40,319 bases of DNA from Candidatus Omnitrophota bacterium. Its GTDB lineage: Bacteria > Omnitrophota > Gorgyraeia > Gygaellales > Profunditerraquicolaceae. Under the pieces are notes generated by a model. It was not told where the DNA came from. It worked only from the letters and a program-made list of their open reading frames with translations, and searched no databases. The stretch is taken from assembly GCA_028713155.1 (NCBI GenBank), contig JAQTPA010000009.1, positions 1 to 40,319 of the forward strand. The letters are read 5' to 3'. The position numbers and the translations under genes are program-made. This document shows, one piece after another, positions 10,417 through 17,930 of the stretch; position 1 is the stretch's first letter, and each line of letters starts with the position of its first letter.

Positions 10417-13400
10417 ATGTGGCGTAAGGTCTCTTCCGTTTTAATATCCCTGTGTTTAGTCTTCCAACAGCTTTCTTTTGCCAGCGTAGCAACAGAGCTT
10501 AATCTGGCCGGGCATTTAAGTAAGATACCCGGCGCCTTTACTGCCGAGAGGTTTCGGCCGGTGCACATCCGTTTTTTTTCTTATGACGCCCTGAATGATA
10601 ATATTAAGGTAATGCTGGATAAGGGCGATGCCAAAAACCTTAAAGAAAGTCAGATCAGCGCATCAACTCAGGAGTTATTAAATTATTTTTTAGTAGGGGT
10701 AAATCTTCCTAACGATAAGTTCTGGGTAAATCTACGCCCGGATTCCGAGGATAGTATTATAGATGATTATCTCGCCAGGACCGATGTGGGAAAAATCATG
10801 CTGGAAGCGGACCTGCAGCTAAAGAAAGATACCGCGCAATTTACCTCGCCGCAAACTCCCGAAGGAAAGGAATACTGGAGCAGGCTTTATCAAAAAGCCG
10901 AAGAGCTCTACGGTTATCAGGAAGTAAGCATTCCTACTTTGACTCGTCCCTGGATAGTCCCCAATGAAATAATTGTCCGCGAGTCCAAAGACAGCGCTTA
11001 TATTTATAAAGCAACCTTAAAGGTAATGCTGGAGCAGGATTTCCTTAAGGACTCGGCAACCTATAATTTTAAAGATAGCCGGGCCAAGGCGCTTAATGAA
11101 TATTCTTCTCAATTAATCCGCGAACTAATCATACCTAAATTAACTAAAGAAGTTAATCTCTCTCAGCGTTACGCTGCCTTAAGGCAGGTATATTATTCCC
11201 TGGTCCTTTCGCGCTGGTTTAAATCCAGGTTTGCCAATCAAGCCGGTAAATACGCCTCGCGCATTGACAGGAAAGACCTTAGCGGTTTGCTTTCAGCGAC
11301 AGCCTGGTCCAAGTCCTCGTATTTTGAAGCTTACAAGAAATCATTCGCCCAGGGCGAGTATAATATCAAGGAAACAGTCCGTACTCCTACAGGGCAGGTA
11401 ATCCGTTCCTATTTCTCCGGCGGTATGGATTTTGCGACTTTGACCATCAACGGGGCCAAGACCACCAGCAGCCCTATGACAACCGCCCTGATGAAAGCCG
11501 GATTGGTTGCGCCGCCTAAAATGGCACCGGTGCAGGAAAATTCAAAGTTAAGCAGTAGCCCCATCATCCCGATAATAGACCAGCTAAACTCCCGCCTTAA
11601 AGACAAAAAAGTTCTTCTGCGGGTAGATTTTAATGTTTCCAATGCAAAAGGCCAGATAAAAGACACAATCAGGATTGAGCAGGCCATACGCACAATTATG
11701 TATATTATTGAAAATGGCGGGACACCGATACTTATCTCTCATAATGGCAGGCCGGGAGGTAAAGTGGTTAAAGAATTTTCTTTAGAGCCTATTGCTCAGA
11801 AACTACAGGAGCTCTTAAGGTCTAAAGGCTATAATACAGAAGTTATTTTTCAAAAAGATAGTATCACTGAACAGGGTTTAGCCTCAGGTTTAAAGGAACG
11901 CATAGTTTTAAATAAAATAAATCTCCTGGAGAATACTCGTTTTTGCCCGGGAGATGAAAGTAATGATGATGCTTTTTCCAGGGCCCTGGCAGGATTGGCG
12001 GACGTATATGTTTTTGATGCCTTTGGAACCGCTGAAAGGGTGCATGCCTCTACCGGTGGAGCAGCCAAATACATGAAGACAATAGCTTTCGGATACTTAA
12101 TGGAAAAGGAAACCCGCTATTTGGAAGGCGCTTTGCCCGTATTAAAAGGCCTGATTATCGGCGGTGGCCCAAAAGTAAGCGAAAAAGTACCTATGGTCAT
12201 GAGGGTAATGAATAATATACGGGCAGGAGGGTTTATCCTTATGGGGACCGGGCCAGTGGCAGCTTTTTTAAAGTTAAAATATAATATTGATATCGGGCAA
12301 AAGCCATCAGAGCAGGATTTAAAGGATGCTCAGGAAATTATCAGGATTGCCCAAGAAAAGGGGATAGAAATAGTTTTACCGGAAGATTTTATTGCTGTGG
12401 ACAGGAATTTAGCGGAGAAAGTTTCGGAGAAAAGCTGGTTAGACTTAAAAATTCTTCCTGAAGGCACAAATACCTATGAGGTAACCTTGGCGCAATTACA
12501 AACAGGATATATCATTGCTCCGGACGGGGAAAAAATACCTTCTTCAGACCTTTTTGTATATGATGTCGGACCCCGAACCGTAGCGGCATTTTCAACAAAA
12601 ATAGCGAACGTAGAAGCCAGGCGTTCTATATTCTGGAACGGCTCTTTAGGGGTAGATGAGATGCCCAATTTCCAGTCCGGCGCAATAGGGCTTGCCCAGG
12701 CATTAACTAAGGCCACCGAAAAAGGAGTCATAACTGTTGTCGGCGGCGGCGATACCGCGAACAGCGCTAAAAAATACCAGGCAAAAGTATCGCATATTTC
12801 TACCGGCGGCGGCGCATCATTGGCTGTTTTACAGGGTAAAAAATTAAAAGCCATTGCAGCTTTAGAAGAAATACAAGCTGCTATTTCAGGCCAGGAATCG
12901 GCCAGCTCGGCGATAACAGCTCAAGAATTTGAAAACTATGTTAATGAGCTGACCGCTTCTTCTAAAATTCTTTTGGGTAATAGATCTGACCTCTATGGGG
13001 CTCTTAATGCTCTTGGGGTGATTATTGCTTACAGGAATGACGAGCAGGGAAAAGAAAGGACAGAATATCAGCGCGCCGTTGGATACTTAAAGTACTTGCT
13101 AGATGGTACCAACATAGAAGACTTAAGTAAAGATAGTCTAAGCCCCATGAGTTTATTGGCGCTCGGGACAGAACTGGTAATGGGGAATGCCCAGGAGCAA
13201 GTAAACTACATCGAAATTATTGAAAAAAATGCAGCAGAAAATGGCAGGACTAGCCTATTAAACCGCGTATTAGCCCGGTTTATTTTAGCGGCAATACGCT
13301 ATATAGGTTATTTAGATAGCCAGGCTCATATTGTAGAGGCTAAAGCTATGTCTGAGAGGTATAGTTTGAATAGCCTGGAAGGTGTATTGGCCCGGTCTGT

Positions 13401-13914
13401 TGTGGGGATGAGCGGAGATCAACAGGCGGTCGGTGCATTAAAAAGAGAAATAACCGCGTTACCTAGGGATGATTTAAGAAGGATCCCGGTTTTAGCTGGT
13501 TTAGTAGCAATCGCCGATACGCAATCAGCCAGTTCAGCGATTACCGATAACAGTAAGAAGGGCGGTATTGATTTCAGGTCTGCGGCAATGGTAATTAATT
13601 ATCAGCCGATGGGTAATTTTGCCAGCCTGAACCCGAAACTCCCGGTCTTAAGCAAGATAGAACTAGCTTCTTTTGATATTGATAAAGAGCTTTCCGGAAT
13701 GGAAAAACTGGTAAATAACCAGATCGTTCCTTCCGGCGAGAGAATCAAGGAAGTCTTAGCTGCCTGTTCGCAAAAGGGAGAGATGGAGGTCAATAAAGAG
13801 CGCCTAATGGCATTACTGGTAAAAATAGGCATAGTGGAAGAGACCCAGTGCTGCCTACAGGAAGCAAGCAACGAATATAAAGAAGCGCTGGTACTGGCAG
13901 ACTCCTTAGCATAA
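10417..13914 (+). CDS. Signal-peptide-bearing multidomain protein containing a complete phosphoglycerate kinase domain
   Basis: Signal peptide MWRKVSSVLISLCLVFQQLSFAS; PGK core from about residue 377 to 815 with VLLRVDFNV, SHNGRPGG, LLENTRF, DAFGTAERVHAST, GGGPKVSEK, YDVGPRTV, FWNGSLGV, GGGDTANSAKK, SHISTGGGASL; flanked by unrecognised N- and C-terminal regions. Confidence 0.9.
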   Translation: MWRKVSSVLISLCLVFQQLSFASVATELNLAGHLSKIPGAFTAERFRPVHIRFFSYDALNDNIKVMLDKGDAKNLKESQISASTQELLNYFLVGVNLPNDKFWVNLRPDSEDSIIDDYLARTDVGKIMLEADLQLKKDTAQFTSPQTPEGKEYWSRLYQKAEELYGYQEVSIPTLTRPWIVPNEIIVRESKDSAYIYKATLKVMLEQDFLKDSATYNFKDSRAKALNEYSSQLIRELIIPKLTKEVNLSQRYAALRQVYYSLVLSRWFKSRFANQAGKYASRIDRKDLSGLLSATAWSKSSYFEAYKKSFAQGEYNIKETVRTPTGQVIRSYFSGGMDFATLTINGAKTTSSPMTTALMKAGLVAPPKMAPVQENSKLSSSPIIPIIDQLNSRLKDKKVLLRVDFNVSNAKGQIKDTIRIEQAIRTIMYIIENGGTPILISHNGRPGGKVVKEFSLEPIAQKLQELLRSKGYNTEVIFQKDSITEQGLASGLKERIVLNKINLLENTRFCPGDESNDDAFSRALAGLADVYVFDAFGTAERVHASTGGAAKYMKTIAFGYLMEKETRYLEGALPVLKGLIIGGGPKVSEKVPMVMRVMNNIRAGGFILMGTGPVAAFLKLKYNIDIGQKPSEQDLKDAQEIIRIAQEKGIEIVLPEDFIAVDRNLAEKVSEKSWLDLKILPEGTNTYEVTLAQLQTGYIIAPDGEKIPSSDLFVYDVGPRTVAAFSTKIANVEARRSIFWNGSLGVDEMPNFQSGAIGLAQALTKATEKGVITVVGGGDTANSAKKYQAKVSHISTGGGASLAVLQGKKLKAIAALEEIQAAISGQESASSAITAQEFENYVNELTASSKILLGNRSDLYGALNALGVIIAYRNDEQGKERTEYQRAVGYLKYLLDGTNIEDLSKDSLSPMSLLALGTELVMGNAQEQVNYIEIIEKNAAENGRTSLLNRVLARFILAAIRYIGYLDSQAHIVEAKAMSERYSLNSLEGVLARSVVGMSGDQQAVGALKREITALPRDDLRRIPVLAGLVAIADTQSASSAITDNSKKGGIDFRSAAMVINYQPMGNFASLNPKLPVLSKIELASFDIDKELSGMEKLVNNQIVPSGERIKEVLAACSQKGEMEVNKERLMALLVKIGIVEETQCCLQEASNEYKEALVLADSLA

Positions 13915-15207: not shown

Positions 15208-16191
15208 GTGCTTAAAAAATTTCTATCTATCCTGGCGGCCGGGATGGTTATCCTGGCCGCAAGTAGTGTTGTTTTTGCTTCGGATAAACAAGTTTCGTCT
15301 TCCTTAAGCCACTATATTATGGGGGTTGTCTGCACTGATTTAGGCGACCTAGACAATGCAATCAAGGAATATAGAAAAGCTCTTTTAGCCGATGATAAGG
15401 CGGCGTTAATCCATCTTAACCTGGCTATCAGCCTGATTAAGAAGAATGATCCCGAAGCGGCAGTTGAAGAGCTAAAAGAAATTGAAAAGTTGGCGCCTGA
15501 TTCAATAGAGCCGCACGCGATATTAGCCATTCTATATTCTTCCCAGGATAAAGTCGATTTGGCGGTAAGCGAATATGAAACTGCACTGCTTAAGGCCTCT
15601 AAAATCAGCCCCCGGGATATAGATATATATAAAAACCTGGGCGTTCTATACTTAAGGCAGAATAAATTAAAAGAGGCGCAGGGTATTTATCGGTTGATTT
15701 TGGCTCTTTCTCCCCAAGACCCCGAGGCGCATTTTTACCTGGGCAGTATTTACTGGGAATTAAAACAGGGGGGCCTTTTTGAACAAGAATTAAAAAAAGC
15801 GCTGGAGCTGAACCCGGATTATGCCGAGGCCCTTAATTTCTTAGGCTATGCGTTTGTCGAGCAGAATAGGAACTTGCCTCAGGCCGAAATAATGATTCGA
15901 AAAGCTCTACGCCTTGAGCCGGATAACGGGGCTTATATCGATAGCCTGGGTTGGTTATATTTTAAGAAAGGCAGGACAAGAGAGGCAAGGAAGCTCTTGG
16001 AAAAGGCAGCCTCTTTGATGGAAGACCCGGTCATCTATGACCATTTGGGAGACACGTATTTTAAATTAAAAGAAATTGCTAAAGCAAAATTAAATTGGCA
16101 GAGGTCATTAGGGCTTGGTCCAAAGCAGGAGAGCGTTAAAAAGAAAATAGAAGGTTTAGATAAAAATGCCGGCAGCGCAAAATCAGATTAA
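15208..16191 (+). CDS. Exported tetratricopeptide-repeat protein
   Basis: Signal peptide followed by multiple TPR units (e.g. DLDNAIKEYRKALLADDKAALIHLNLAISL, PEAHFYLGSIYWELKQ); GTG start. Confidence 0.9.
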   Translation: MLKKFLSILAAGMVILAASSVVFASDKQVSSSLSHYIMGVVCTDLGDLDNAIKEYRKALLADDKAALIHLNLAISLIKKNDPEAAVEELKEIEKLAPDSIEPHAILAILYSSQDKVDLAVSEYETALLKASKISPRDIDIYKNLGVLYLRQNKLKEAQGIYRLILALSPQDPEAHFYLGSIYWELKQGGLFEQELKKALELNPDYAEALNFLGYAFVEQNRNLPQAEIMIRKALRLEPDNGAYIDSLGWLYFKKGRTREARKLLEKAASLMEDPVIYDHLGDTYFKLKEIAKAKLNWQRSLGLGPKQESVKKKIEGLDKNAGSAKSD

Positions 16192-16987
16192 GGAATTAGA
16201 AGAAAAAGCCAGGTTTACCAGGCGCCTGATCATTCAGATGATTGCCAAGGCTGGTTCAGGCCATCCCGGAGGAAGCCTCTCGGCGACAGATTTAATCACC
16301 GCTTTATTCTTTTCGGTTTTAAAACACGACCCGAAAAATCCCAAATGGCCCGACCGGGACAGGTTCCATATGTCTAAAGGCCACTGTTGCCCGCTCTGGT
16401 ACGCGGTTCTGGCAGAGTCGGGTTATTTCCCCCAAGAAACTCTTATGACTTTACGCGAGCTTGGTTCTCTGCTCCAAGGGCATCCTGATCGGCGTACCCC
16501 GGGCGTTGAGGTTTCTTCGGGCTCGCTCGGCCAGGGCTTATCGGTTGCTTTAGGTATGAGCCTTGCGTCTAAAATAGATAAGAAAGATTACCGGGTCTAT
16601 GTTCTGCTTGGCGACGGAGAGACACAGGAAGGCAATATCTGGGAAGCGGCGATGGCCTGCAGCCATTATAAGTGCAGCAATATCTGCGCGATCCTGGATT
16701 ATAACGGATTTCAGATTGACGGATCAACCCGGGATGTAATGAACTTAGAGCCGGTAGCCGATAAGTGGAAGGCTTTTGGCTGGTATACGCTTGGGATAGA
16801 CGGCCATAATATGCGGCAGATTCTTGATGCTTACGACCAAGCAAAGTCAGTTAAGGATAAACCGGTGATCATTATCGCCCGGACAGTAAAAGGTAAAGGT
16901 GTATCTTTTATGGAGAATACGGTAGACTTTCATGGCCGCGCCCCCACAAAAGAGGAAACAGAGAGGGCCTTGGAGGAGCTAGCTTAA
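16166..16987 (+). CDS. Transketolase, N-terminal subunit
   Basis: IAKAGSGHPGGSLSATDLITALFF, HMSKGHCCPLWYAVLAESG, GDGETQEGNIWEAAMACSHYK. Confidence 0.93.
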   Translation: MPAAQNQIKELEEKARFTRRLIIQMIAKAGSGHPGGSLSATDLITALFFSVLKHDPKNPKWPDRDRFHMSKGHCCPLWYAVLAESGYFPQETLMTLRELGSLLQGHPDRRTPGVEVSSGSLGQGLSVALGMSLASKIDKKDYRVYVLLGDGETQEGNIWEAAMACSHYKCSNICAILDYNGFQIDGSTRDVMNLEPVADKWKAFGWYTLGIDGHNMRQILDAYDQAKSVKDKPVIIIARTVKGKGVSFMENTVDFHGRAPTKEETERALEELA

Positions 16988-16991
16988 AGAA

Positions 16992-17930
16992 ATGGTTGAA
17001 CAACTTTACCAGCGCGATTGTTACGGCAAGGCTTTGGTTGAGCTGGGTAAAACCAACAAGGATATTGTTGTTTTGGACGCGGACCTATCCAGTTCTACGC
17101 GCACCGGTTTATTCGCCAGAGAATTTCCCGACCGGTTTTTTAATTTCGGAGTGGCTGAACAAAATATGATGGCTGCGGCAGCGGGTCTGGCTTCTTGCGG
17201 TAAGACAGTTTTTGTCTCGACTTTTGCGATTTTTGCTTCCGGCCGAGCCTGGGACCAAGTACGCAATTCCATTTGTTACAGTAATCTTAATGTTAAAATC
17301 GTCGCTACGCATGCCGGTATTTCTGTCGGTCCGGATGGCGCCAGCCATCAGGCCCTGGAAGATATCGCCCTTATGCGGGTAATCCCGAACATGAATATCC
17401 TGGTGCCTTGTGACGGGCCGCAAACTACCGAGGCGATTAACGCCGCACTTAGCACAAATGGCCCGTTTTACATAAGGTTAGGCAGGCCGAAAGTGCCAAC
17501 CCTGGAGAATAAGGGAAAGTTCGAATTAGGTAAGGCCCAGGTATTGGTTGAAGGCAGCGATGTTACGATAGCCGCCTGCGGGATTATGGTCGCCGAAGCC
17601 CTGGTTGCCGTCGGCAATTTAGCTAAGCAGGGAATTAAGGCGCGCCTGATCAATATGCATAGCTTAAGGCCGTTGGATACACAGGTAATACTTAAAGCTG
17701 CCCGGGAAACCCGCGGGATAATCGTCTGCGAAGAGCATAATATCATCGGAGGCCTGGCTTCCAGTATCGATGAAATAGTAGCGGAGAATAATCCCACCAG
17801 GGTAATGCGTATAGGCATAAGGAACAGGTTCGGTCAATCCGGCGAACCAGCCCAACTTTTAAAAGAGTATAATCTTACGAGCGCCGATATTGAAAAAGCG
17901 GCCTTAACCTGTTTTACTAAATGTAAGTAA
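16992..17930 (+). CDS. Transketolase, C-terminal subunit
   Basis: VVLDADLSSSTRTGLFAREFPDRFFNFGVAEQNMMAAAAGLA, HAGISVGPDGASHQALEDIALMR. Confidence 0.93.
   Translation: MVEQLYQRDCYGKALVELGKTNKDIVVLDADLSSSTRTGLFAREFPDRFFNFGVAEQNMMAAAAGLASCGKTVFVSTFAIFASGRAWDQVRNSICYSNLNVKIVATHAGISVGPDGASHQALEDIALMRVIPNMNILVPCDGPQTTEAINAALSTNGPFYIRLGRPKVPTLENKGKFELGKAQVLVEGSDVTIAACGIMVAEALVAVGNLAKQGIKARLINMHSLRPLDTQVILKAARETRGIIVCEEHNIIGGLASSIDEIVAENNPTRVMRIGIRNRFGQSGEPAQLLKEYNLTSADIEKAALTCFTKCK

Follow-up and report, generated by a model that had tools for sequence, protein, structure and literature searches.

Because glycolysis depends on ATP and NAD, it is regarded as the pathway that defines the cytosol. The glycosomal or plastid isoenzymes of glycolysis are a targeted second set of the same pathway, and the phosphoglycerate kinase (PGK), enolase and GAPDH that moonlight on cell surfaces are normal cytosolic proteins without a signal peptide. 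Viral and peptide precursors are the familiar cases of proteolytically processed polyproteins. Here we describe an open reading frame (ORF) in a stretch of 40,319 nucleotides (the window) of contig JAQTPA010000009.1 from the Candidatus Omnitrophota bacterium assembly GCA_028713155.1. The ORF, at positions 10417-13914 of the + strand, encodes a protein of 1165 amino acids (aa), in which a PGK follows a predicted Sec-type signal peptide. Judging from its sequence and those of its relatives we propose, with a little less than even confidence, that it belongs to a phylum-restricted family of Sec-exported, probably processed enzyme polyproteins, which would serve glycolysis or gluconeogenesis outside the cytoplasm.

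It is useful to compare this protein with the systems it most resembles. Like the glycosomal and plastid isoenzymes, the family would duplicate the cytosolic pathway with enzymes targeted elsewhere, whereas here the organism is bacterial, the enzymes are carried in polyproteins and the targeting is of the Sec type. With processed polyproteins it shares independent domains parted by a recurrent short motif; unlike in those, no encoded protease was recognised, cutting is only presumed, and the cargo is a metabolic pathway. A place outside the cytoplasm, predicted in our case, is common to the moonlighting surface enzymes, but the window PGK is a separate copy with its own signal, and a canonical pgk is present elsewhere in the genome. 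The bifunctional PGK/TIM fusion (NCBIfam PRK13962) also joins glycolytic enzymes in one chain, and PGK and TIM do co-occur in the family chains L097, L038 and L122; the window protein, however, scores 280.9 bits against a cut-off of 883, lacks TIM, and has a signal peptide, N- and C-terminal modules and junction motifs. Within the phylum, giant ORFs (>20 kb) were described as poorly understood, and adhesin-like domains and ATP/ADP translocases were reported in some classes (Seymour et al. 2023, PMC10066038). As far as the consulted passages of that paper go, the giant ORFs and our family have in common the phylum, very long chains and poor annotation, whereas the giant ORFs contain adhesin-like domains or many transmembrane helices and are larger: the window ORF has 3.5 kb, and the longest ORF with the same N-terminal module 5771 aa, about 17 kb. 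Glycolytic cargo, a module led by a signal peptide and a junction motif are all absent from those passages.

The window ORF is a single uninterrupted frame with an ATG start and no internal stop. Its parts, in window coordinates, are the following:

10417..10485, + strand: predicted Sec-type signal peptide, residues 1-23 (translation; modelled helix 2-27; family alignment)
10486..11451, + strand: N-module, residues 24-345, an alpha/beta domain, conserved, for which the PDB gave no match (alignment A1; AlphaFold2)
11464..11478, + strand: junction motif TSSPM, residues 350-354 (motif scan)
11551..11565, + strand: junction motif SSSPI, residues 379-383, 14 residues ahead of PGK (motif scan)
11593..12867, + strand: cargo 1, PGK, residues 393-817 (Pfam PF00162; PDB 1vpe; active-site positions; dN/dS)
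12901..12915, + strand: junction motif ASSAI, residues 829-833, DNA GCCAGCTCGGCGATA, 12 residues past PGK (motif scan, DNA comparison)
12916..13527, + strand: cargo 2, unit without recognised fold, residues 834-1037 (missing in the aligned closest ortholog)
13528..13542, + strand: junction motif ASSAI, residues 1038-1042 (motif scan)
13561..13911, + strand: C-module, residues 1049-1165, invariant GGI(D) start followed by a helical domain (alignment A2; AlphaFold2; no PDB fold match)

The closest ortholog (L035, on G006:C14), from an independent metagenome-assembled genome (MAG) of another collection, is 93% identical and has the same architecture, therefore a fusion caused by an assembly or sequencing frameshift can be rejected. 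The dN/dS ratio between the two, calculated over the entire window ORF by the Nei-Gojobori method, was 0.10. That the ORF is an assembly artefact, an erroneous gene fusion or a decaying pseudogene is very improbable: it does come from a MAG assembly, and some paralogues are degenerate, but the architecture recurs in independent MAGs, related frames stay open to more than 5700 aa, the low dN/dS extends over the whole ORF, and the independent ortholog already contradicts such an origin. The initial sequence-only reading of this DNA, which had described one 1165-aa ORF with a signal peptide and a complete PGK in its middle and had named a frameshift joining separate genes among the conditions that would refute it, was thus right about the frame. 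On either flank of the PGK it had also seen about 350 aa that it did not recognise. This holds for residues 834-1037, whereas the remainder of the flanks consists of the conserved N-module (residues 1-345 when counted with the signal peptide) and C-module.

The PGK is complete and its motifs are intact, as had been read. Pfam PF00162 matched residues 393-808 (4.8e-92, profile positions 5-379), and PDB alignments, the best of them with 1vpe (1.1e-68), stretch the domain to residue 817. All 22 active-site positions are identical to those of reference PGKs, thus no catalytic residue appears to be lost. Between the window ORF and L035 the PGK had a dN/dS of 0.070, compared to 0.088 in the N-module and 0.110 in the C-module, which shows that the PGK is under purifying selection at least as strong as that acting on the rest of the chain. 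With intact residues and purifying selection, the window PGK looks functional. It resembles canonical PGKs (PF00162) in having a full-length core with all tested active-site positions; unlike them, it sits inside a 1165-aa chain led by a signal peptide, and it has a very long branch. The long branches of the cargo PGKs are also the reason why a tree did not place their origin.

It must be noted that the window PGK is not the only pgk of its genome (1.23 Mb in 48 contigs, about 90% complete). A second, canonical pgk, for which the earlier reading had proposed a search, was found at G000:C30:24045-25217; in the same search it scored 510 bits, compared to 310 for the window PGK. It adjoins genes for GAPDH (C30:21145) and TIM (C30:25364) in a gap-pgk-tpi cluster, and enolase is encoded on C25. 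The presence of these separate canonical genes indicates that cytosolic glycolysis is independent of the window protein. Most of 40 relatives likewise have PGK, TIM, GAPDH and enolase as single genes.

Dozens of loci matching the N-module were found in related genomes, with more than 20 in the richest genome; the ORFs concerned range from about 350 to 5771 aa, and the cargo of these chains varies. All 41 N-module loci in the collection of genome contigs were from Omnitrophota, apart from what lay in one MAG labelled merely "bacterium"; on the sequences compared here, the polyprotein family with shared N- and C-modules is phylum-restricted. Alignment A1 contains 63 N-module rows, which are 27-94% identical to the window protein and have 27 invariant columns. 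The AlphaFold2 model of the N-module had a mean predicted local distance difference test score (pLDDT) of 87, yet it gave no Foldseek match at E<=0.001, and its sequence no significant PDB sequence or profile match. The C-module begins with GGIDFR (alignment A2). In its model (137 residues, pLDDT 83) the first ~50 residues are without secondary structure, with the lowest confidence over the first 20, and are followed by five helices; Foldseek found no PDB fold match. A weak sequence match (5.6e-4) to PPR proteins was not confirmed by the fold, and this identity was discarded. The genome of the window contains two N-modules and two C-modules, belonging to the window ORF and to a 1770-aa frame on C32. 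N-module genes were also present on four IMG/VR contigs labelled viral (L152-L155), which may be mislabelled bacterial contigs; the 1590-aa member on L155 has a GGIDL stretch near its end and adjoins a radical-SAM-like gene.

The N-terminus of the window protein, MWRKVSSVLISLCLVFQQLSFAS followed by VATE, has the charge, the hydrophobic core and the small-residue end of a Sec signal peptide. Using a simple hydropathy and charge test on the aligned N-modules, we found the hydrophobic core and N-terminal K/R in 63 of 63 homologs. The Sec-type signal recognised in the sequence-only reading is thereby borne out, and homologs lacking it, which had been considered as counter-evidence, were not seen. 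We infer that the window protein is exported by the Sec pathway. Alternatively, the N-terminus could be an uncleaved membrane anchor, with the enzymes facing the cytosol or an infolded internal membrane as a tethered glycolytic metabolon. Such an arrangement would give the enzymes access to cofactors, a compartment would require just such a full second pathway, and in the AlphaFold2 model residues 2-27 form one continuous helix (mean pLDDT 84 over residues 1-10). We consider it improbable, since the family's positive N-terminal charges and FAQ/FAS-type cleavage-like endings point to a usual Sec signal, the rest of the chain lying outside, and non-homologous chains also begin signal-like. The latter are a second type of glycolytic chain, found in G008/G020 (L120:3-12720:- and L122:4519-10611:-). 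They lack the N-module; the signal peptides at their starts are unrelated in sequence and precede an LRP/LRKP stretch, and their cargo comprises PFK+aldolase+GAPDH, PPDK, TIM, and PGK+GAPDH+TIM+enolase. Two kinds of N-terminus thus bring an export signal to glycolytic enzymes.

Cargo was assigned by Pfam unless marked as assigned by reading. In the related chains the following enzymes were recognised:

L097 (congener, 3600-aa chain): GAPDH, PGK, KbaZ/aldolase-like domain, TIM, enolase
L096 (own-genome protein on C32): PGM
L079: PGK and FBP aldolase
L099 and L108: iPGM
L054: PGM
L038: GAPDH, TIM, PGK and iPGM
L044: aldolase and TIM; in a second ORF, enolase and the start of PPDK
L086: PGK and GAPDH
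L036: PGK and enolase
L059: enolase and PPDK
L116 (G011): PGM and PGI
L123: FBPase and TIM

Pooled over all chains the cargo includes PGM, PGI, PFK, FBPase, FBP aldolase, TIM, GAPDH, PGK, phosphoglycerate mutase, enolase and PPDK, thus the steps from glucose 1-phosphate to pyruvate or phosphoenolpyruvate are represented. Because the cargo comprises the full glycolytic set and not a single sticky enzyme, the moonlighting surface protein considered in the earlier reading has become less likely. By reading alone, residues ~400-1080 of L096 resemble PGI (SKSGSTDET, GGRWT, GTADQH), and L097 contains a GlpX-like FBPase and an active-looking TIM (NWKM, GHSEVRR, AYEPVWAIGTG). L097 (2810-13609:-) also has two GAPDH domains in tandem (residues 391-700 and 760-1186), the second with SCTTN, and at residues 1197-1610 a circularly permuted PGK, whose C-terminal part precedes the N-terminal part (by reading; two separate match stretches). 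This permuted PGK, within a chain led by a signal peptide, keeps 21 of the 22 active-site positions.

For an estimate free of selection we scanned 30 N-/C-module proteins regardless of their content, excluding the window protein; chains picked later by similarity or enzyme content were left out of this count. Glycolytic enzymes were present in 6 of the 30, and enzymes of other central pathways in none, therefore random capture of any gene as cargo was rejected. The other domains seen were HATPase, response regulator, metallophosphatase, GNAT, methyltransferase, NUDIX, HD and HEAT, and many proteins had no recognised domain. One further locus, L117 (G011:C48:1-20000), has an open frame of more than 6666 aa with 13 junction motifs and no N- or C-module in the fetched part; it contains GGDEF, PGI, a histidine-kinase-type ATPase, an M20/M28 peptidase, TPR and GNAT domains. 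The cargo PGI of L116 and L117 is of the long E. coli/eukaryote type, which the relatives' stand-alone PGI genes match weakly (~50-95 bits), thus the cargo PGI may have a different origin.

The domains of these chains are separated by the motif [AST]SS[AP][VILM]. Per 1000 aa it occurred 0.75 times in the family and 0.024 times in the remaining ORFs of this DNA, a 31-fold difference. Of 61 motifs, 20.3 would be expected to fall within recognised domains and none did (P 2e-11), although such avoidance is partly expected, as a motif of this kind is unlikely inside folded cores. Many motifs lie 2-14 residues off a domain end, the window PGK being framed at -14 and +12, and in the C-module model the motif falls within the disordered first part. 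Conservation extends to the codons (GCC-AGC-TCG-SCG): the second Ser is encoded by TCG in 50% of the junctions compared to 11% otherwise, and GCC, AGC and GCG/CCG are favoured likewise. All 24 distinct exact copies of the 12-mer GCCAGCTCG(G/C)CG in the fetched DNA, one of them at window positions 12901-12912, were in-frame junctions, which gives no sign of a free-standing genomic element, and beyond the 12-mer there was little DNA conservation. These observations suggest that the junction DNA was copied or recombined as DNA, or that selection acts on the mRNA; candidate origins are a recombination site, a copied linker or a translational pause. The DNA copies of the two ASSAI junctions of the window are similar to each other, and the alignment with L035 skips residues 828-1036, that is, the unit between these junctions. 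Of the explanations offered in the sequence-only reading, a processed polyprotein or enzyme carrier gained most: shared modules, exchangeable cargo and a motif between domains agree with it.

How might such a protein work? The signal peptide, conserved throughout the family, would take the chain across the inner membrane. The N- and C-modules could be common handling ends for retention, chaperoning or recognition, and the Ser-Ser-Ala/Pro junctions exposed linkers that undergo cleavage or, failing that, hold the domains apart. Released or tethered, the cargo enzymes would add to the complete canonical pathway of the cytosol a second Embden-Meyerhof/gluconeogenic pathway outside the cytoplasm, to which the window protein would contribute an active PGK, as its intact residues suggest. 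Cassettes may be gained and lost at junctions by recombination, of which the difference from L035 is one exact example. Export, module roles, junction cutting and extracytoplasmic catalysis are all inferred here, as is the destination, which may be the periplasm, an internal compartment or a partner cell. The wider proposal, that the lineage sends out a full second set of Embden-Meyerhof/gluconeogenesis enzymes as cleavable cassette polyproteins and so runs central carbon metabolism beyond its own cytoplasm (in a partner cell, or in a compartment of the envelope or the cell interior), we hold tentatively, as somewhat under an even chance.

Several observations weigh against this proposal. No encoded processing protease was recognised, and the Ser/Ala-rich linkers could be mere spacers. 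A full exported pathway was seen in no single genome, and much of the cargo is non-glycolytic or unrecognisable. Some cargo copies are decayed: the PGKs of L079, L036 and L086 keep 15, 17 and 17 of the 22 active-site positions, respectively, and in L097, by reading, the first GAPDH is without the catalytic Cys motif (SCTT) and the enolase has seemingly lost its catalytic lysines. The weak point is the requirement for ATP, ADP and NAD(H) at an extracytoplasmic site; ATP/ADP translocase of the TLC type (PF03219), considered as an energy link, gave no match in 40 relatives, and none in the control genomes either.

The decayed copies in some lineages keep alive the idea that enzyme folds were reused as non-catalytic blocks of a cell-surface or matrix protein, with catalysis irrelevant or residual. 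The loss of active-site residues in several copies, the permuted PGK, the very long cargo branches and the presence of HEAT/TPR-type cargo fit this idea. We think it unlikely: the window PGK has kept all tested positions and has a dN/dS (0.07) below that of the N-module, the PGI of L116 aligns almost end to end with that of E. coli (590 bits), and structural reuse leaves the glycolytic make-up of the recognised metabolic cargo unexplained.

The ATP/NAD problem makes an internal compartment or a partner cell serious alternatives as destinations. It is possible, if again rather unlikely, that the polyproteins are delivered into a partner, host or prey, where the released enzymes would redirect sugar metabolism and the N- and C-modules would be translocation or recognition parts. 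The recipient's cytosol would supply ATP and NAD. Fast divergence between species, several paralogues per genome and the signalling-type cargo (GGDEF, HATPase, PP2C, GNAT, methyltransferase) that occurs next to the glycolytic cargo give an effector-like picture. On the other hand, no injection or pore domain was recognised, the terminal modules have no fold match, and a partner usually owns glycolysis already. The consulted passages of PMC10066038 bear on both sides: they report host-dependence traits and one observed predator among Omnitrophota, but describe the class Gorgyraia as mostly without Tad and ATP/ADP translocase, and perhaps often free-living.

If the proposed extracytoplasmic pathway is real, a phylum has equipped separate versions of essentially all glycolytic enzymes with signal peptides and packed them in polyproteins, which would mean a bacterial glycolytic compartment, or a whole pathway delivered to another cell. 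Our literature search on Omnitrophota polyproteins, extracellular glycolysis and signal-peptide-bearing glycolytic enzymes found no description of such a system; it covered few subscription papers and no preprints, thus it is no proof of novelty. With the N-module, the C-module, the junction motif and the cargo list, the large Omnitrophota proteins, long unexplained, come within reach of concrete study, and single recombinant genes suffice to test each step. Copies that are permuted, fused or decayed can be viewed as natural experiments in enzyme architecture. A further observation in the window is a split transketolase at 16166-17930, whose N and C halves are, judged by sequence, encoded by adjacent ORFs.

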